This document shows, piece by piece, positions 50,166 through 58,483 of a DNA stretch of 64,000 bases; position 1 is the stretch's first letter, and the number at the start of each line of letters is the position of its first letter. Under the pieces are notes generated by a model. It made no database searches and had not been told where the DNA came from. It worked only from the letters and a program-made list of their open reading frames with translations. Source of the DNA: Candidatus Latescibacterota bacterium (GTDB lineage: Bacteria; Krumholzibacteriota; Krumholzibacteriia; WVZY01); assembly GCA_011772205.1 (NCBI GenBank), contig WVZY01000022.1, positions 62,001-126,000 of the forward strand, given 5' to 3'. A program made the position numbers and the translations under genes.

Positions 50166-51218
50166 CTATTCGTACCGAAACGTCTCGGCCAGTGCGAGCA
50201 GCTCTCGGAAGTGGGGGTGCTTGGGAAATCCCGGTGCGTAAACGAGGAGATCTACCGCCCACAGCAGCTCTTCGTTCTCCTGAAACACAAAGAATGTTTG
50301 GTAAAATCCTCCTGCAGTCGCTGTCGTGTTGTACCAATACCCTTCCATCTTCACCGCAGGGTATTCGCCCAGCTGTTCTTCCGAAAACCACACCTGTGTA
50401 GAATCCATCGCATCCTTGTTGTAACGCTCCCAAACGTATTTCCTGCGGATATCGAATAGCACATTCTTATCGGCCAGCGTCGGTTGCTTGTCCCAATCGA
50501 CCCAGAATATGCCGAGCAGTCTGGATGGATTTTCGCGGAGAAGTTCGACTCCCGGAGGAGTTCGACTCTCGCTGAAAAGCCGGTAAAGCGTGGGGACTTC
50601 CACGGCAAAGCCGTACGTCCGGTACAAATGATCGGTTACCGTCTTGTTTGGATAGGACATGAAGAACCGGCGCAACCGATTCCGGCAGCTGCTCTCAATG
50701 ATCCCTTCGAGTTCCCTGCCCCGCTCCTCAATAACCCTCTCGAGTTCCCCCTCGCTCGAAGCCGTCACGATCACCGTCAGCTGACCGGGCGCCGGCAGAT
50801 TCTCCCGCTTCAAGATATTCGCTTCCCCAGCCTTTACCTTGCTCAATCCCGATTCCCCGATCAACATGATGATCCGCTCTCCGACATCGGTGAGTGGGTC
50901 CGCAACACCGCATATCACAATGTTTTTGACGGCGGGCATTTCACCGAGATCGGCCGCCCTTATAGCGGAGACCGTGAACGGTTTCTCCTTATCCAGAACA
51001 TAGTTCTTCTCCTTCGTTAGCCAGGGAACAATGAGAGTCATGAGGCTGCTCTCTTTCCCTTCCTCTGTGACCAGCAGTATCTCCGAATAGGAGCCGGCAG
51101 GAGGGACGGCCAATTCCTTGCATCCACTCGCAAAAAGGAAAGCCACGACCAGCAACGCCCAGACGGCTGTTTTGAATGAACAGGGACAACGTTTCATCAA
51201 TTTAAATATATAGTGCAT
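50166..51218 (-). CDS. DUF4837-like lipoprotein
   Basis: 350 residues. The signal peptide (about 1-32) ends in the lipobox FASGC. The mature protein resembles DUF4837 proteins of Bacteroidetes: an early YSEILLVTEEG strand, a middle part with long helices, and late motifs IFWVDWDK and a conserved aromatic GYWYNTT. Function unknown. The ATG at 51218 has AGGA upstream; the ATG at 51197 is an alternative. It lies 149 bases after the anti-sigma gene and has its own terminator. The family call is from memory of its pattern. Confidence 0.7.
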   Translation of the reverse strand: MHYIFKLMKRCPCSFKTAVWALLVVAFLFASGCKELAVPPAGSYSEILLVTEEGKESSLMTLIVPWLTKEKNYVLDKEKPFTVSAIRAADLGEMPAVKNIVICGVADPLTDVGERIIMLIGESGLSKVKAGEANILKRENLPAPGQLTVIVTASSEGELERVIEERGRELEGIIESSCRNRLRRFFMSYPNKTVTDHLYRTYGFAVEVPTLYRLFSESRTPPGVELLRENPSRLLGIFWVDWDKQPTLADKNVLFDIRRKYVWERYNKDAMDSTQVWFSEEQLGEYPAVKMEGYWYNTTATAGGFYQTFFVFQENEELLWAVDLLVYAPGFPKHPHFRELLALAETFRYE

Positions 51219-51367
51219 ATCCGAGTCCTAGTGCAAAAGAAAAAAGCGCACATCTCGAGGCTGTCCACATCGAGCTGTAACGTGGATTTGAATCGGCTCT
51301 TTGATGTGAAAGGAAATCAAGGATCGACGCGAATAGCCTCGTGCGGGGGGCAGCCCATTCCGTAATA

Positions 51368-52093
51368 CTAGGGTTTCACGCTGCTGGTTCCCGACTCACA
51401 CTCCCGGAGGTAGCTTTGGAGCTGCTCCACCTGCTGCTGAAGAGAACGGACTCTGAACTGCATATAGTACGATTTCATGATGAAAGGTACGAGCGAGTCC
51501 GGTCCCATGATGATTGTGGAGAGAGGGGGAACTTCCTCATTGATCGCTCCGCGGTAGCCCGGCCGACCCAGGAATCCGCTCTCCCCGCTTGAAACAGGCC
51601 ATTGCATGTCCGGCAAGTCCCCTCTGTAACGCGTCGTCGATTCGTCTGTGGATGTTTCGTTCGGCACAGAGGCCAGATTCTGAATGGTTGTTGCTGGCCG
51701 CTGGTATGTGACCTCTGCAGGCACGTCCGGTTTCAGGATAATGCCCGACGTCCACAATAAGTAGCCGCTCGCTAGGATCAGTGCAAACGTCGCTACAGCG
51801 CTCAACGCGAAGTGCATGTTCCACGACTTGAAGACCTCCTTCTGGGCGGCAATCGCATCATGAAAAGCATTCCTTTCCCTGGCAAGCTGCAGCCGGACGT
51901 TCCAGTTGAAGTTTTCGCTGGGCGCTTCCAGCGGAGCTCGGTGGACAAGATCCAGGCTCCGCGCCATCTGGGATGTAAATGTTTCGCAGGTGCTGCACTC
52001 GTTCAAGTGTTTCTCCAAGTTCACACGGTCGCTCTCGGCAAGCGTTCCGTCAAGGAAGTCGAAAACGAGTTGCTTTGCTCGACGGCATTTCAT
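51368..52093 (-). CDS. Zinc-finger anti-sigma factor
   Basis: 241 residues. The N-terminal anti-sigma zinc-binding pattern is H-x3-C-x2-C (HLNECSTC at about residues 29-36) with MKCRRAK at the start. A single membrane helix (about 97-117, FALSAVATFALILASGYLL) separates the cytosolic part from a periplasmic domain ending in a coiled-coil-like VRSLQQQVEQLQSYL. It should hold the neighbouring ECF sigma factor inactive until an envelope signal triggers release. It starts 12 bases after the sigma gene with an AGGAGG ribosome site. Confidence 0.9.
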   Translation of the reverse strand: MKCRRAKQLVFDFLDGTLAESDRVNLEKHLNECSTCETFTSQMARSLDLVHRAPLEAPSENFNWNVRLQLARERNAFHDAIAAQKEVFKSWNMHFALSAVATFALILASGYLLWTSGIILKPDVPAEVTYQRPATTIQNLASVPNETSTDESTTRYRGDLPDMQWPVSSGESGFLGRPGYRGAINEEVPPLSTIIMGPDSLVPFIMKSYYMQFRVRSLQQQVEQLQSYLRECESGTSSVKP

Positions 52094-52105
52094 AGTGGGG
52101 TCCTC

Positions 52106-52735
52106 CTAAAAATCGATTCCTCTTTCTAAAAGCGGTTCTACAATCTTTCGAAAATAGTTCCTCGCGCGATTGATTCTGGAGCGGACGGTACCGAGCTTCA
52201 AACCGGTAACCGCTGCAATTTCTTCGTATGAAAGCTGGTTGATCTCCCTAAGCACAAAACTCATACGGTACTTAGCCGGTATCCTCTGGATTGCTTGATT
52301 GATGATCATACTGAGCTCAAGGTCATTGATCTCCTCATCAGGTTCCTTTCCTGGATCGACCAGATCGATCGGCTTCGATTCGGTAGACCCATCCTTTCCC
52401 CGATCCCAGAGATGGAGAAATTGCGGAGCGCGGCTCTTCGCACGGATGCGGTTTCTGACGAGATTCGTCGCGATCGTATAAAGCCATGTCGAGAATTTTG
52501 CAATGGTCTTATATTTCCCTGAATGAATAAACGCTTTGACAAATGCCTCTTGCGCGATCTCCTCGGCCTCATCTCGATCCCCGATCAAGCGGAAGAGATA
52601 GTTGAGAAGTCTCACCTTATACCGGTCCACGAGAATATCGAAAGAGACATTGCTCCCTCGTTGGACCTCGAGCATCAGCTCCTCATCGGTGAGGCTCCGG
52701 AGCCTGGCGCGCTCTTTAAGAGAGTCCGGGTCCAC
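52106..52735 (-). CDS. ECF-type RNA polymerase sigma factor (RpoE-like)
   Basis: 209 residues. Region 2: DEAEEIAQEAFVKAFIHSG and FSTWLYTIATNLVRNRIR. Region 4: RMSFVLREINQLSYEEIAAVTGL and LGTVRSRINRARNYFRK. A GTG start at 52735 with AAGGAAA upstream. Paired with a membrane anti-sigma factor, it probably directs an envelope-stress regulon. A GGAACT-17-TATAAA promoter lies just before it and might be self-recognised. Confidence 0.94.
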   Translation of the reverse strand: MDPDSLKERARLRSLTDEELMLEVQRGSNVSFDILVDRYKVRLLNYLFRLIGDRDEAEEIAQEAFVKAFIHSGKYKTIAKFSTWLYTIATNLVRNRIRAKSRAPQFLHLWDRGKDGSTESKPIDLVDPGKEPDEEINDLELSMIINQAIQRIPAKYRMSFVLREINQLSYEEIAAVTGLKLGTVRSRINRARNYFRKIVEPLLERGIDF

Positions 52736-52756
52736 GTCTTTCCTTTCACTCGTCTT

Positions 52757-52785
52757 TTTATACCCAATTCAGCCGCTCGAGTTCC
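52757..52785 (-). promoter_or_regulatory. Candidate promoter of the ECF sigma gene
   Basis: On the minus strand GGAACT (52785 back to 52780), 17 bases, TATAAA (52762 back to 52757), 21 bases before the GTG start. The -35 has the GGAAC look of ECF promoters, while the -10 is closer to the housekeeping form. Confidence 0.4.
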
Positions 52786-52876
52786 TATGAGCGGGACTTG
52801 TCCCGATCCCGAATTGCTCCCTTATCCACCCGCAGTGCTCGAAGGAAATGCTAACTGAATGTATAATAATAAGTTA

Positions 52877-53623
52877 CTAATTGGCAGCAAGTTTGATGCG
52901 CCATCTTCTATCTTCGATCAATAACACGATCTCTTCCAACCCTTGATTCTCCGATCCTGAAGGAGCCCATAGATAGGACGCCTCGAGCCGATCAACCTCT
53001 CCAGTCGAAAAATAAACGGGCCAGTGAAGGGACCTGAGTCTCCTCTCTTCGGGATCGAAAACGACGCGCACCTGTCTGTCCGCGAGCCGCCCTGAAAATA
53101 CGACCTCCCCGCTATTGGAAGTATGAATTTTCTTATTCTTCAAGTTGTTGCAAGGCGGCAGCGCCCCGAGAACGATGGCGACGATCTCCTGAGCGCTGAT
53201 GTCCAAATCGAGCGCATCCTGCAGCATGACATCCACCTCTTCCCTCTCGTAGAACTTCATCCGCTCGCGGTCGAGAACGCGGATCACTCCTTCTACAATC
53301 GATATCGAGATATCCTCCCGCTGCCCGCCCAACAGGGAACCGCTCGAGAATTCGAAGCCCATGTCGCCGTTCGCCTGTGCGAGCAGGTTGAACTGGCCTC
53401 TTACTCTATACTGCTCCACGTCGAAGGTCGCTCTACCTGCCATGATAATGACCTTCTCGAAACCCGAGCTTCGATAGAGCGAATCCAATACCGCGCACGT
53501 CTCCCGCCCTGGAATCGCTTTCCGGCCCGCCGGTGATGCACAGCCAACCTGCAGCAGTACACAGATCAGCCCTGCAGCGACCGTGCCCATTGTGGAAGAC
53601 AAAAGGAATCGATCACCCGTCAT
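52877..53623 (-). CDS. DUF4292-like lipoprotein
   Basis: 248 residues. The signal peptide ends in the lipobox LQVGC. The mature part looks like a LolB/DUF4292-type beta sheet: VEQYRVRGQFNLLAQ, an early amphipathic helix, and later strands with VVFDPEERRLRSLHWP. Such proteins are thought to bind lipids or lipoproteins; a LolB-like role is possible as no lolB is seen. It follows the long TPR gene by 5 bases, so they are co-transcribed. The family call is tentative. Confidence 0.7.
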   Translation of the reverse strand: MTGDRFLLSSTMGTVAAGLICVLLQVGCASPAGRKAIPGRETCAVLDSLYRSSGFEKVIIMAGRATFDVEQYRVRGQFNLLAQANGDMGFEFSSGSLLGGQREDISISIVEGVIRVLDRERMKFYEREEVDVMLQDALDLDISAQEIVAIVLGALPPCNNLKNKKIHTSNSGEVVFSGRLADRQVRVVFDPEERRLRSLHWPVYFSTGEVDRLEASYLWAPSGSENQGLEEIVLLIEDRRWRIKLAAN

Positions 53624-53628
53624 TTGTA

Positions 53629-55401
53629 TTATTCAATCCTTTTCCGCGCGGATTCGATTTTCTCAAGAATGTCGGGGGTTCCACCCCCGGCGGCTTCGGA
53701 CCGCTCATAGGCTGCCAGTGCATCGCGGAATCGTTTCAGCGCCCGGTATGCGTCCCCCAAGTGTTCGAGAATCACCGGATCGTCCGGGACGATTATGGAG
53801 GCTTTTTCCAATTCAACAACGGCCAGATCGTATTCCCCACGCTGATAGAACACCCAGCCAAGGCTATCGATGTAATAACCGTTCGAGGGATCTTTTTCGA
53901 GTGCCTTCCGTATCAGCTCTTCGGCGCGCTCGAGGTTCTTCCCCATTTCCGCGAGCAAGTAACCGTAGAAGTTGCAGATCGTGGGGTCATCGGGTTTGCG
54001 CTCGAGGAGTCGGATGAGATACCCTTCCGCTTCCTCGAACCGCCCGGACTTTTCGGCAATATTGGCGAGATTCAGCAGCGTGCCTTCGTCATCCGGCATC
54101 AGAGCGAGGGCGTGCAAGAGATATTTCCTGCCTGCGTCCAGTGAGTCGACGCTCATGTAGCAAATACCGACGAGATAGTTACCGTCGAAATCCTCCTCGG
54201 TAACCAGGGATCCGGCCTTATGGAGCAGCTCCGCCGTTTCCTTGTCGGAAAGCTCGATCCTCGTCCCATCTTCCGGCGCAAACCTGGAAGAAGAGGCAAA
54301 AAACAGACCGAGATAGCGCCTGTAATCGTCCGGCGAGGCATCGATCGCCATGCGGAAATATTTCAAGGCTTTTTCCGGTTCTCCCTTCCTCAGGCAGATG
54401 TCGCCAAGAATCCTCGCGAGTTCAGGGCTGTCGGGATCCTTTTCGTGCAACTCCGCGAATATGATCTCAGCCTCGTCGTATTCTTTCGCTTCGAAGTAAA
54501 ACCTCCCAAGAAGAATTTGAGCTTCGCGCGGAAGTGTCCCCTTTTGCTGTTGTGCTTCGAGCAACCGAATACCATCGTCCAAACGCCCGATATCGAGATA
54601 GAGAGTCGCCAGCATCATCATGACCCTCTCTGTTTGTGCTCCCTGCTCGAGTGCCTTCGAGAGGACGGACACCGCCTCATCGACACGCGCACTATCTATG
54701 AGGAGTCCGGCCAGCTTTATGGCCGGCTCCGTCAAACGCGGGTCAATAGCGATCGATTTGCGAAACGCCTCTTCGGCCTCTGCATGCCTCCCGGCCGACG
54801 TGAGGAGAAGACCATAACGGTACTGCATGCTCGCTGAGTTCGGATCGAGCTTCAGAGCATTTTCGAATGCTTCCAGCGCTTTTTCATCCTCCCCTATTTC
54901 ATAGTAAATGTTGCCGAGCATGCGCTGGATCTCGAACGAGCTTCTGTGCGTTTCAACGATTCTTTCGAGGTACCTGAGTGATGATCTGGGGTCTCGCTGG
55001 AGATACTTGATCTTGGCCTTCAATAGGAGGGCGATGTAATTGTCGGGATCTCTCGAAAGTACTTCATCCGCAACGGATTCGCTAGACGGAAATCTCTTGA
55101 GATAGTAATATGCCTCTGCGAGCTTGGCCCCGATGAATGGGTGGTAATCGCTTTTTTCCCAAGCTGCTTCGAAATAATCGACGGCGCTGTGCGTGTCCCC
55201 GCTTTCCATGAGGTATACGCCCATGGCGAAATGTGAGAGCACTTCTCCATCCAGAATGGGAGGAGACTCACTCGCCGATCTGGTGGACACTGCCGAAATA
55301 AGCAAGAAAACCCAAATCGAGAGTATGACAGGCACATAGTGCGGCGCTTCGAGCCAAATTGAGATATTTAGGAGCTGTTTCAATTGCTGAATTCCGCGCA
55401 T
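53629..55401 (-). CDS. Large TPR-repeat protein
   Basis: 590 residues. A signal-anchor-like hydrophobic stretch (VPVILSIWVFLLISAV) is followed by about twelve tetratricopeptide units across the whole length, such as HFAMGVYLMESGDTHSAVDYF and MLGNIYYEIGEDEKALEAF. Late repeats include YGYLLAEMGKNLERAEELI. It is probably exported and holds an envelope complex together. The ATG at 55401 has AAGGAT upstream; the frame is open to 55488 but that would overlap the divergent gene. It is co-transcribed with the DUF4292-like lipoprotein. Confidence 0.87.
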   Translation of the reverse strand: MRGIQQLKQLLNISIWLEAPHYVPVILSIWVFLLISAVSTRSASESPPILDGEVLSHFAMGVYLMESGDTHSAVDYFEAAWEKSDYHPFIGAKLAEAYYYLKRFPSSESVADEVLSRDPDNYIALLLKAKIKYLQRDPRSSLRYLERIVETHRSSFEIQRMLGNIYYEIGEDEKALEAFENALKLDPNSASMQYRYGLLLTSAGRHAEAEEAFRKSIAIDPRLTEPAIKLAGLLIDSARVDEAVSVLSKALEQGAQTERVMMMLATLYLDIGRLDDGIRLLEAQQQKGTLPREAQILLGRFYFEAKEYDEAEIIFAELHEKDPDSPELARILGDICLRKGEPEKALKYFRMAIDASPDDYRRYLGLFFASSSRFAPEDGTRIELSDKETAELLHKAGSLVTEEDFDGNYLVGICYMSVDSLDAGRKYLLHALALMPDDEGTLLNLANIAEKSGRFEEAEGYLIRLLERKPDDPTICNFYGYLLAEMGKNLERAEELIRKALEKDPSNGYYIDSLGWVFYQRGEYDLAVVELEKASIIVPDDPVILEHLGDAYRALKRFRDALAAYERSEAAGGGTPDILEKIESARKRIE

Positions 55402-55486
55402 TGAGATATCCTTTAAGTAGGAGAACGTACCGTATCTTCCCCTGAAATCGAATGATTTATCATATTTTAACAGGAAAGGGGGATTC

Positions 55487-55879
55487 ATGACAAATCGAAT
55501 CCTACTGGCTCTGATCCCCTGCCTGATTCTGTTTGCATTGATTCTTTCCGCATCTTCCTGCTATACGATCCTCAAAGATCCCGGCATCGCCGATGCGTAA
55601 GACCACAACGATTACATTTACTTCCACCCAGCGCCAGGTATGCCTTGCACCGGCTGCCACTTCGATCTGCATCCCATCGTGCCCCCCGCACCCGCTGAGC
55701 CCGAGCCACCGCCGCCCCCGAGAGATGAACTCCGGGAGGAGCGGAAAAAAAGAGAGGATCCCGGGGAGCGTTCCGGACGTACTCGCCCTCCTTCGAAGGA
55801 AAAAGGGGCAAAATCAGCTCCCGACGACAGGAAAGAGGACAAAGGCAAAAAGATGCCGGAAAAGAATCAAAGCCCCTGA
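55487..55879 (+). pseudogene. CxxCH lipoprotein gene interrupted by a TAA codon
   Basis: From the ATG at 55487 (behind AGGAAAGGGGG) a signal peptide ends in the lipobox ASSC followed by YTILKDPGIADA, then TAA at 55598-55600. The same frame stays open to 55879 and encodes MPCTGCHFDLHP, a proline-rich stretch and a Lys/Glu-rich tail. The next gene, at 56038, has the same order: SSCYTIL, a CITCH motif and a charged tail. So this is a paralogue broken by one stop codon, or a 37-residue product with a silent remainder. CTGCH could bind haem or metal. Confidence 0.7.
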
Positions 55880-56037
55880 AGCGATCCAGCAATTCCAAAT
55901 ATAAGAAAAACTGGCAATCTTGCTCGCATGTTTTTTGCTAGATAACTCGATGCGGCAAGCGTTCTTCCCGGTACCGGCATGAATAGGCATTGCCAAGCAA
56001 AATCCCATTAATTAATATAAATACGAAAAGGAGTGTC

Positions 56038-56544
56038 ATGGCTAGCCGCATCTGCAGAAGTGTTGCGCTATCGATTTTTTCGGTTCTGATACTGGTTCTC
56101 ACTGTCTCCTCTTGTTACACCATCCTCAGGCACCCCAGAATCGCCGAAGCGGATTATGAAAGACCATCGGGAGTTCGATGCATCACATGTCATACAGAAG
56201 ATGAAATGTGGCAATTCCACCGCCCATCTACGAGATATATCTACTATCCAGGCTGGCAGTATTATTATGATACTCCTTGGTGGTACGATTCATACTGGTA
56301 CCACACAGATCCCGTTGATCCCGAAACGGTCCCTCTCCGCTGGCGATCATTTCGAGCCACGCGAGACAAAGGAGGGGACTCGGGAATTCGCCCAGGCACG
56401 CTTCGCGGCCAAACGGGCAATACTAAGTTGAAGTCCCCTGACGACGCAGAGAACAAGGAGAAGGGCAGTGAAGGAGACAAAAATAAATCAAAATCCGATA
56501 AGCGATCAATCCGGCCCACGAAGAAAAAGAAAAAAGACGGGTAA
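56038..56544 (+). CDS. CxxCH-containing lipoprotein, unknown family
   Basis: 168 residues. Signal peptide with lipobox VSSC, then YTILRHPRIAEADY and a CITCH motif (C-x-x-C-H, typical of c-type haem sites, though one alone could also bind a metal). A very Tyr/Trp-rich stretch follows (YYPGWQYYYDTPWWYDSYW), and the C-terminal third is full of Lys, Ser, Asp and Glu. AAAGGAG lies before the ATG at 56038. Its 3' end overlaps the outer-membrane protein gene by 77 bases. I do not recognise the family. Confidence 0.8.
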   Translation: MASRICRSVALSIFSVLILVLTVSSCYTILRHPRIAEADYERPSGVRCITCHTEDEMWQFHRPSTRYIYYPGWQYYYDTPWWYDSYWYHTDPVDPETVPLRWRSFRATRDKGGDSGIRPGTLRGQTGNTKLKSPDDAENKEKGSEGDKNKSKSDKRSIRPTKKKKKDG

Positions 56545-57844
56545 ACACGCCCTCCGAGTGCTGTTGGCTGCCGGCATTCTCGGAATGGCATCGTTCGCTT
56601 TCGCACAGGACGTTAACGAGGCGCTTGATTTCGAAGACCTTGGCTTCAACTCGCGTCTTTTCTCCGCAGCTCGGCCGGCAGGGCTCGCCGGCGCCTACAC
56701 GACTGCGGGAGACGACGTTCACACACTGGTGTACAATCCAGCCGGTCTTTCGAGAGTGCGCAGGATAGAGGCGTCCGTTGGGTTTCAATACGAAAGGAAC
56801 AACGTCAGGAACGTGTTCTATGGTTCGACGGCCAGCGTTGACCATACATCGACGAACCTCGACTACGCATCCATCGCTTACCCTTTCCCAACATATCGGG
56901 GAAGCCTCGTAGGGGCATTTGGGGTTTACAGGGAGTACTCGGCATACCTGGATCTGATCAACAGAGGATTCAATACGGCAACTCAGACTCAAGATGATTT
57001 CGTATTACAGCAGTCCGGTTCGATTTTCAGCTATAACGTCGGGTTCGGTGTCGACCTTTCCCCAACCCTTTCGACGGGAGCCTCGTTTTTTATCCTCGAT
57101 GGAACGGTTAACGCGCTCACCCAATGGTCTTATCAAGTAATCGGCCCTCTCAATCAAGGGGATATCCGGGAGCATTTCCTGCTGGATGATCTCCAAGTGG
57201 ATGTGGATGGTTATGGAGGACGACTCGGCATTCAGTTCTCCCCGCACAATAAATTCCGATTCGGAGCTGCCCTGACGACTCCCATCTGGATCAACCTGGA
57301 GGGCGACGCCTTTACGGAAGAATTGCTGTACCTCGAGGACGACCCAGACGAGATGTATACCGATGTTGCCCTGATCGACATCGATTACCGCCTGCCTTAC
57401 CGCATCGACGCCGGCGTAAGCTTCACTCCGGAATATTTCCTGATCTCTGTGGATGCCGGGTACGCCGATTGGACACAATCTTCGATCAACCGAACCCGGT
57501 TGAGGGACGATAACCTGGAGCCGGTTCAGCGGGAGGTCGTGGACGTGAGAGCAGGTGTAGAAGTGAACATTCCTGGCAGGCCATTCAGGATCCGAGCTGG
57601 ATACGCCTATGTGCCGTATCCTCTTCATTACCTGCAGGCGGATCGAATCGAAGGCGCGGCCATCACAAAGGCAAGCATTGATACAGAGCGGCAGCTGCTC
57701 GCTTTCGGTTTCGGCGGGCTCGTTGGTCGCGTACTGACCCTGGATGCTGCTTACCAGTACATCATGGGCGAGCGATCCATATCGACGCTCAAAGATGATC
57801 GGGCTCTGCACAGGTTTTTGCTTTCAGGATCATATCGCTTCTAG
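56468..57844 (+). CDS. FadL/OmpP1-like outer-membrane protein
   Basis: 458 residues from the GTG at 56468, which has AAGGAG upstream. A long basic N-terminus precedes the signal hydrophobic core LLAAGILGMASFAFAQ. Then SARPAGLAGAYTTAGDDVHTLVYNPAGLSRV, quoted here in part, is the motif of FadL and PorV-like barrels, followed by many amphipathic strands and a final SGSYRF strand ending in F. It is probably a beta-barrel for transport of hydrophobic compounds or secretion. It overlaps the CxxCH lipoprotein gene, which suggests coupled expression. Confidence 0.82.
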   Translation: MKETKINQNPISDQSGPRRKRKKTGKHALRVLLAAGILGMASFAFAQDVNEALDFEDLGFNSRLFSAARPAGLAGAYTTAGDDVHTLVYNPAGLSRVRRIEASVGFQYERNNVRNVFYGSTASVDHTSTNLDYASIAYPFPTYRGSLVGAFGVYREYSAYLDLINRGFNTATQTQDDFVLQQSGSIFSYNVGFGVDLSPTLSTGASFFILDGTVNALTQWSYQVIGPLNQGDIREHFLLDDLQVDVDGYGGRLGIQFSPHNKFRFGAALTTPIWINLEGDAFTEELLYLEDDPDEMYTDVALIDIDYRLPYRIDAGVSFTPEYFLISVDAGYADWTQSSINRTRLRDDNLEPVQREVVDVRAGVEVNIPGRPFRIRAGYAYVPYPLHYLQADRIEGAAITKASIDTERQLLAFGFGGLVGRVLTLDAAYQYIMGERSISTLKDDRALHRFLLSGSYRF

Positions 57845-57940: not shown

Positions 57941-58372
57941 TTACTTCTTACGGGATGTGCCGCCCAAGAGGGCAAGGTAGGCCTCGTCCAGTTTCTCCAT
58001 CATTTCTTCGCTCAATCCCCCACCCGTTTCCATAACGCGGTTATATGTTTCCTCGATATACCGGCAGAGGGACACCTGCCTGTTTTCAATTTGCGTGAAG
58101 ACCAGCTTCTTTAGTTCCTCAGAATTTCTGGCAAAATCAGGATCCGTTTCTTCGACATTTTTGACATTGTGGAAGTAGTCGTTGAGCAACCGCAGCCAAT
58201 AATCTTCATGCTGCCCCCCGTTGTCGAACACGCATCCCGGCTTCTCAACGAGAAAGCAGTAACCATATATGAAATACGTACACTGGAGCATGCCCTGCAG
58301 AAAAAACCGGCGGTAACAATCGATGCTCATCACATCGAGCTTGCAGGGAAGCTGGCACTCCCGGCAGAGCAT
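57941..58372 (-). CDS. Hypothetical Cys-rich protein
   Basis: 143 residues from the ATG at 58372, which has GGGGGAG upstream; an ATG at 58432 would add 20 residues without a ribosome site. The N-terminal half is rich in cysteine: MLCRECQLPC, SIDCYRRFF, LQCTYF, YGYCFLVEKPGC, so it may bind zinc or an iron-sulphur cluster. The C-terminal half is helical. No family is recognised. It lies downstream of rnc on the same strand, 111 bases away. Confidence 0.65.
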   Translation of the reverse strand: MLCRECQLPCKLDVMSIDCYRRFFLQGMLQCTYFIYGYCFLVEKPGCVFDNGGQHEDYWLRLLNDYFHNVKNVEETDPDFARNSEELKKLVFTQIENRQVSLCRYIEETYNRVMETGGGLSEEMMEKLDEAYLALLGGTSRKK

Positions 58373-58483
58373 CTCAGCTTCTCCCCCATAGACAAACGGG
58401 AGGGAAGGCACTTTTATTTCAGGTCTACCCATGCTAATGCCAAACTCATGCAGGAAATGTGCCTTTTCCGGCTACAGTATCTG

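Follow-up and report, generated by a model that had tools for sequence, protein, structure and literature searches.

The window analysed here, a 64,000-nucleotide stretch of contig WVZY01000022.1 from a Candidatus Latescibacterota bacterium that GTDB places in Krumholzibacteriota, carries two copies of a lipoprotein gene (A and B), followed by the gene of an outer-membrane barrel (Table 1). A preliminary description, made from the sequence alone, had reported a pair of CxxCH lipoproteins joined to a FadL-like barrel. Both copies start as it stated and share SSCYTIL and a CxxCH motif, and the charged tail and Tyr/Trp-rich stretch ascribed to copy B are present. The pair did not hold up: copy A is a decayed or diverged copy and no intact gene. 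Its TAA falls between SSCYTIL and CxxCH, with 37 residues preceding the stop, and it reads KDP where the family has xHP. Against residues 14-53 of copy B it shows 50% identity, with one TAA inside the aligned part. The 92 open codons after the TAA are weak evidence of coding, because about 11% of dinucleotide shuffles are equally open. The TAA could result from an assembly error instead of a real stop. Recoding of TAA was also considered and is thought unlikely, because copy B and the neighbouring genes read normally (the TAA was rendered as Tyr solely for displaying the frame).

Table 1. Features of the locus (positions in the window; aa, amino acids).
Feature	Position	Strand	Remarks
DUF4837, anti-sigma (zf-HC2), sigma factor, DUF4292-like and TPR genes	50166-55488	-	Order largely kept over the phylum; sigma and DUF4292-like labels by eye
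Copy A, broken or decayed lipoprotein gene	55487..55879	+	TAA in frame at codon 38; Asp replacing the near-invariant His; PWW stretch absent; CxxCH and charged tail beyond the stop
In-frame TAA stop inside copy A	55598..55600	+	Sequence reading
CTGCH (CxxCH) of copy A, beyond the stop	55646..55660	+	Sequence reading
Copy B, intact CxxCH lipoprotein, 168 aa	56038..56544	+	AAGGAG precedes its ATG; family profile and alignments
Lipidated Cys26 to His32 (C-Y-T-x3-H), conserved mature N-terminus	56113..56133	+	His32 is the proposed distal ligand; alignments
CITCH (CxxCH), copy B residues 48-52	56179..56193	+	Sequence, alignments
Tyr/Trp-rich stretch	56236..56307	+	Conserved W73, YY, PWW (residues 80-82); alignments, aromatic fraction
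Charged Lys-rich C-terminal tail of copy B	56350..56541	+	No predicted structure; sequence, alignment, structure prediction
FadL-superfamily outer-membrane barrel	56468..57844	+	PF03349; GTG start uncertain; about 14 predicted strands
163-aa Cys-containing protein	57941-58432	-	Matched in 29 of the 80 phylum genomes, its own among them; often beside the barrel

Copy B runs from a signal peptide with the lipobox VSSC through Y-T-I-L-R-H-P, a single CxxCH and the Tyr/Trp-rich stretch to a tail rich in Lys, Asp and Glu. The signature of its family is a lipobox C-Y-T-x3-H-P, a CxxCH, a W-x2-YY-x2-PWW and a charged tail, the tail being almost missing from two members (G003 and G006). Residues C26, T28, H32, P33, C48, C51, H52 and P80 are invariant among 14 aligned sequences. 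The lipidated Cys, Thr, His, Pro, CxxCH and PWW are likewise invariant in two diverse sets (n = 23 and n = 22); this is partly a selection effect, because most of the set of 23 came from a pattern scan with CYT and HP as required residues. The Tyr/Trp stretch belongs to the entire family and not to copy B alone, with a mean aromatic fraction of 0.24 over mature residues 20-90 (134 sequences). No Pfam and no NCBIfam family scored above its cut-off with copy B. Structure prediction, a route that the preliminary description had suggested, worked for the barrel (pLDDT 85) but returned no confident fold for the lipoprotein (pLDDT 57, pTM 0.24), an outcome that would fit folding dependent on a cofactor or partner, or disorder. 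A search of the open-access literature found no paper on this lipoprotein, and FadL, CXXCH, lipoprotein and barrel searched together gave none.

Homologues, on whose existence the preliminary description had let its reading depend, were found in several phyla. A profile search identified members in 18 of 80 Krumholzibacteriota genomes, the window's own included (E 2.6e-39 to 6e-9). Nine weaker matches were inspected: two had no CxxCH frame, and the other seven are small exported proteins of monohaem type but of a different kind. The seven at L065-L071 end in MTCG and all come from a single family code (f6) of the phylum, for which the search gave no member of the lipoprotein family. A pattern scan of named genomes, which required [SPA][GA]CYT[IL][LI]xHP, gave 22 loci and extended the family to Zixibacteria, KSB1, Calditrichota/Calditrichaeota and the Kryptonia members Chrysopegis and Thermokryptus, the latter placed by NCBI in Kryptoniota. 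At E <= 0.001 the profiles matched 50 of the 132 Zixibacteria-phylum genomes, 56 of 82 in the KSB1 phylum (longer paralogues counted in) and 25 of a sample of 395 from the phylum that includes the Chrysopegis genome, a phylum we take to be Bacteroidota in GTDB usage. These later profiles were built chiefly from CxxCH members. Weak matches of five genomes and one second match in the Chrysopegis phylum, together with 18 places in the KSB1 phylum, were left out of the loci. Three loci (L077, L088 and L092) share the gene order of the window's phylum; their public labels, Latescibacterota or plain bacterium, are perhaps outdated. For counting we used a set of 134 sequences, in which those with identical first 70 mature residues were counted once. 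It left out four copy A entries (cut by the stop), one unrelated cytochrome (L069) and five entries, one listed twice, that have CxxCH and HP and do not have a strict C[YFH]T.

The gene order is largely kept in the window's phylum: DUF4837, anti-sigma, sigma, DUF4292-like and TPR genes, then lipoprotein and barrel, then the 163-aa gene, rnc and fabF. In four genomes (G004, G005, G014 and G017) the fetched stretch lacks parts of this order; another, G043, carries an insertion. The 163-aa protein is 47-73% identical in genomes other than its own and has no Pfam or NCBIfam match at E <= 1. The barrel follows the lipoprotein gene in all 18 Krumholzibacteriota genomes that have the lipoprotein (the window, 13 loci and 4 more). 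An automated recount gave 16 of 17 fetched loci; L173 fell beyond the distance limit, its barrel stop-to-stop frame extending back 543 bases, and its lipoprotein (2006-2506) and barrel (675-1916) lie side by side. Co-occurrence with the barrel, which the preliminary description had proposed to count, also holds in Zixibacteria (48 of 50; the sequence of the remaining two loci ends 190 and 157 bases downstream) and in the phylum of the Chrysopegis genome and L090 (19 of 20 fetched loci), but it breaks down in the KSB1 group. There the barrel adjoins none of the 38 CxxCH lipoproteins, although 20 of these loci hold only about 1.2 kb downstream; in three a barrel sits 3.4 to 3.8 kb upstream. The partner of the barrel in that group is a longer, CxxCH-less lipoprotein starting C-Y-T-Q or C-Y-T-V, adjoining in seven of eight fetched loci; the contig end truncates the eighth. 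Longer Tyr-rich C-Y-T-Q lipoproteins, CxxCH-less where checked, were seen at L237:1683-2804, L087:2-1213 and L090:6012-6989; the one in L237 matches the same profile at E 3e-6, has the barrel adjoining and is likely a paralogue. Copy B and the barrel are thus a conserved gene pair, whose linkage in several phyla argues against chance neighbourhood. The barrel also occurs by itself: eight genomes of the window's phylum (L159-L161, L163-L167) have no lipoprotein gene in the gap between TPR and barrel, and L162 and L169 have none up to the contig start. A tail-like Lys/Arg-rich stretch ahead of the barrel in G002, of the window's own family, is perhaps a remnant. Genes for outer-membrane proteins of about 250 aa lie upstream of the lipoprotein at L082:53-847, L090:5169-5930 and L087:6213-6968, scoring 24.8, 18.4 and 15.6 bits, respectively, for YjbH (PF06082, cut-off 24); those upstream in L081, L084, L089, L094, L095 and L096 are similar by eye.

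The FadL-like barrel of the preliminary description stands. It matches PF03349 (E 1.3e-9, 37.5 bits versus a cut-off of 29.7), and its model (18 sequences; pTM 0.79) has about 14 strands, with helices before residue 97. A sequence search of solved structures with the barrel found none, and neither did a peptide-pattern search for it in the genome contigs. The reported overlap of 77 bases with copy B does follow from a GTG start at 56468, with AAGGAG ahead of it. Its extent is nonetheless uncertain, because 7 of 16 related loci allow an ATG at a 4-base overlap, and L088 and L092, closer relatives, have an ATG at 8 bases. By VIA, with rows within 1 Z treated as tied, the model is closest to FadL (Z 34.6 over 352 residues, rmsd 2.9), and CymD, TbuX and TodX are close behind. 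A chain of the F. johnsoniae BAM complex, which we take to be BamG, reaches Z 33.5 and is placed first by Foldseek. The type 9 secretion system chains 8gl6_F and 6h3i_F, presumably PorV, share the superfamily fold at Z 27.1 and 26.8. From the predicted fold and the family match we are confident that this is a FadL-superfamily barrel. Residue 1 of FadL aligns with residue 59 of the model, and the mature N-terminus probably lies at residue 47, giving an N-terminal extension over FadL of about 12 residues (the cleavage site is itself deduced, and residues 36-47 have low confidence in the model). The third predicted strand is broken at 159-160, approximately the place, we assume, of the S3 kink of FadL.

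The best NCBIfam match of the barrel is BamG (NF053685), at 53.3 bits against an equivalog cut-off of 250; the PorV family reaches 25 bits against a cut-off of 90. We considered BamG orthology and find it unlikely. In 16 of the 19 genomes with the pair (linkage read from coordinates), a gene other than the linked barrel is the better match, which makes the barrel most likely a BamG-like paralogue. The window's own genome has such a candidate at G000:C71 (92.7 bits versus 53), itself below the cut-off, as are all BamG candidates in the window's phylum. Chrysopegis has a gene elsewhere with 269.9 bits versus 52.5 for the linked barrel; G014 and G090 show near ties. The linked barrel is the top BamG match of its genome in three of the 19 (G005, G047 and G089). 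The barrel is BamG-like, then, but probably not BamG.

Conservation of the CxxCH, which the preliminary description took to bear on its haem proposal, is extensive and has real exceptions. The motif is present in 112 of the 134 sequences, each time as the only CxxCH within the first 110 mature residues. The 22 sequences lacking it, longer paralogues among them, retain the lipobox-YT and the aromatic stretch, and 17 have the barrel adjoining; in Zixibacteria, seven of the 50 members are CxxCH-less and still have it beside them. The N-terminal His follows the CxxCH: [YFH]TxxxH occurs in 110 of the 112 sequences with CxxCH versus 4 of the 22 without, and in 97 of 99 versus 4 of 22 when the pattern-scan loci are removed (Fisher p ~1e-16 and ~1e-15, respectively, relatedness ignored). 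A tree from the other columns yielded at least seven changes of CxxCH and eight of the His. On supported branches there were three independent CxxCH pairs, for which the His changed the same way in 2.5 on average, the opposite way in 0 and showed no difference in 0.5; the sign test on these three changes (median p 0.25) cannot reach significance. The joint presence of His and CxxCH suggests one four-ligand site, the parts of which would be kept or lost together. Two CxxCH members without the N-terminal His motif, L202 and L214, both have an extra downstream IHxVHG, which perhaps supplies another ligand.

This putative site is most likely a mono-haem c, a metal site being less likely. The CxxCH of copy B lies behind the lipobox of an exported protein, and for such a motif the simplest interpretation is a bis-His-ligated haem c. 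Searched against solved sequences, the lipoprotein profile gave 27 matches at E <= 1, of which 26 are named c-type cytochromes or cytochrome subunits; all are weak (best E 0.002) and start from the CxxCH. No curated cytochrome family scored above its cut-off for copy B, and a single PF00034 match (E 0.02) was seen among 23 members. The maturation genes on which the haem proposal of the preliminary description depended are present, the window's own genome included. Cytochrom_C_asm was found in 46 of 46 genomes, 15 of them without the lipoprotein, and in 69 of 71 of a second set; G096 and G191, the two where it is missing, may be incomplete genomes, and both have CxxCH lipoproteins. In the window's own genome, contig C33 has Cytochrom_C_asm frames of 747 aa and 239 aa about 4.5 kb apart, which by their size would be CcmF- and CcmC-like, and C64 has one more; no ResB was found in this genome. 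These genes do not discriminate, because 18 genomes of the second set whose fetched member is CxxCH-less have Cytochrom_C_asm too. Nor can a haem be the whole function, because CxxCH-less members keep the adjoining barrel. From these members, the barrel-only genomes and the split arrangement in KSB1 it follows that barrel and aromatic scaffold have uses without the CxxCH site.

It is the gene order that suggests that the lipoprotein may work with the barrel, and the BamG-BamH pair provides the closest analogy. According to two reports, BamG has an extended N-terminus (about 10 residues, PMC12578637) that runs through its lateral opening, and BamH is a lipoprotein whose lipidated conserved N-terminus occupies a BamG groove, its acyl chains being placed between BamA and BamG; BamG2 and BamH2 form a putative operon (PMC12611786, PMC12578637). 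The window's barrel likewise has a predicted N-terminal extension, and its lipoprotein a conserved N-terminus. The barrel differs in scoring far below the BamG cut-off in a genome that holds a better candidate, and its lipoprotein, which has no predicted fold, has a CxxCH; for BamH, the portions of those reports available do not mention a comparable site, here a likely haem or metal one (PMC12611786, PMC12578637). By this analogy we tentatively propose, as the best explanation, a two-gene outer-membrane module in which a mono-haem lipoprotein docks on a FadL-type platform, an interpretation that may well be right but that we would stop short of calling probable. The BamG-like barrel encoded downstream would be the platform, and the small lipoprotein encoded upstream would dock on it by its mature N-terminus, C-Y-T-x3-H-P, as BamH does on BamG. 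A single haem c would be covalently bound at the CxxCH, with the His six residues past the lipidated Cys as second axial ligand. The haem would thereby be placed at the membrane surface beside the barrel, and the same N-terminal His would tie it to the docking site. The Tyr/Trp strip may pack around the haem or against the barrel. The pair might deliver electrons at the surface, or it might contribute to envelope assembly through a redox-dependent step. The proposal builds on the family, its linkage, the predicted barrel fold and the joint occurrence of His and CxxCH, and extrapolates from them to the complex, the haem, its ligand and a redox role.

The rival that survives best, although we consider it somewhat unlikely, is a module for outer-membrane assembly or surface anchoring, comparable to BamG-BamH or PorV; the Tyr/Trp-rich scaffold of the lipoprotein would do the work, and the CxxCH would be an accessory lacking in several lineages. 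The CxxCH-less members with their adjoining barrels would suit it, as would the NCBIfam ranking of the barrel, its first place for BamG in three genomes and the YjbH-like gene upstream in L082, with weaker matches in L090 and L087; the better BamG matches elsewhere in most genomes do not, and 110 of the 134 sequences, from distant phyla, retain both CxxCH and His, which is much for a dispensable accessory. Less likely still is a zinc or copper site (Cys2His2) formed by the CxxCH and the N-terminal His. Joint loss of the two fits any four-ligand site, and the lack of a cytochrome family above cut-off is compatible with a metal, but these organisms have cytochrome c maturation genes, and in such organisms an exported protein with a CxxCH is normally haem-loaded.

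The docked mono-haem lipoprotein can be carried further, to electron transfer by the pair, which the preliminary description had raised alongside hydrophobic substrate transfer and which we infer as one potential activity. Its boldest form is a two-chain, single-haem cytochrome-porin on a FadL fold, in which the haem (CxxCH plus the His seven residues into the mature protein) and the Tyr/Trp strip would conduct electrons across the outer membrane of FCB bacteria or along it, a redox conduit without multihaem cytochromes; we regard this as improbable. Cyc2 is reported to join one CxxCH haem site to one outer-membrane barrel, but as a single chain with a predicted 16-stranded porin, whereas here there are two frames and a FadL-type barrel (PMC8406198). 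The Mtr and Omb-Oma-Omc porin-cytochrome conduits resemble the pair in combining an outer-membrane barrel with a redox lipoprotein (PMC6148476). No multihaem partner was found in the 64-kb window, where no frame of at least 100 codons has multiple CxxCH motifs; of the frames that long, just copy B and one lying antisense to fabF contain a CxxCH. That the barrel is an ordinary FadL-type transporter of hydrophobic compounds, with the lipoprotein a surface receptor or chance neighbour, would agree with its VIA ranking and broken third strand, but is very improbable given the linkage over several phyla and a predicted N-terminal extension resembling that of BamG, which fills the lateral opening there (PMC12578637).

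FadL-type barrels with dedicated lipoproteins were recognised in 2025 as core components of the Bacteroidota BAM complex. The present pair looks like a second FadL-type barrel with a lipoprotein family of its own, distributed over several FCB-type phyla. Neither Pfam-A nor NCBIfam, as scanned, contains this lipoprotein family, so that a dedicated model would help to annotate many genomes. A real haem would mean that a redox centre lies at the base of a FadL-type platform.
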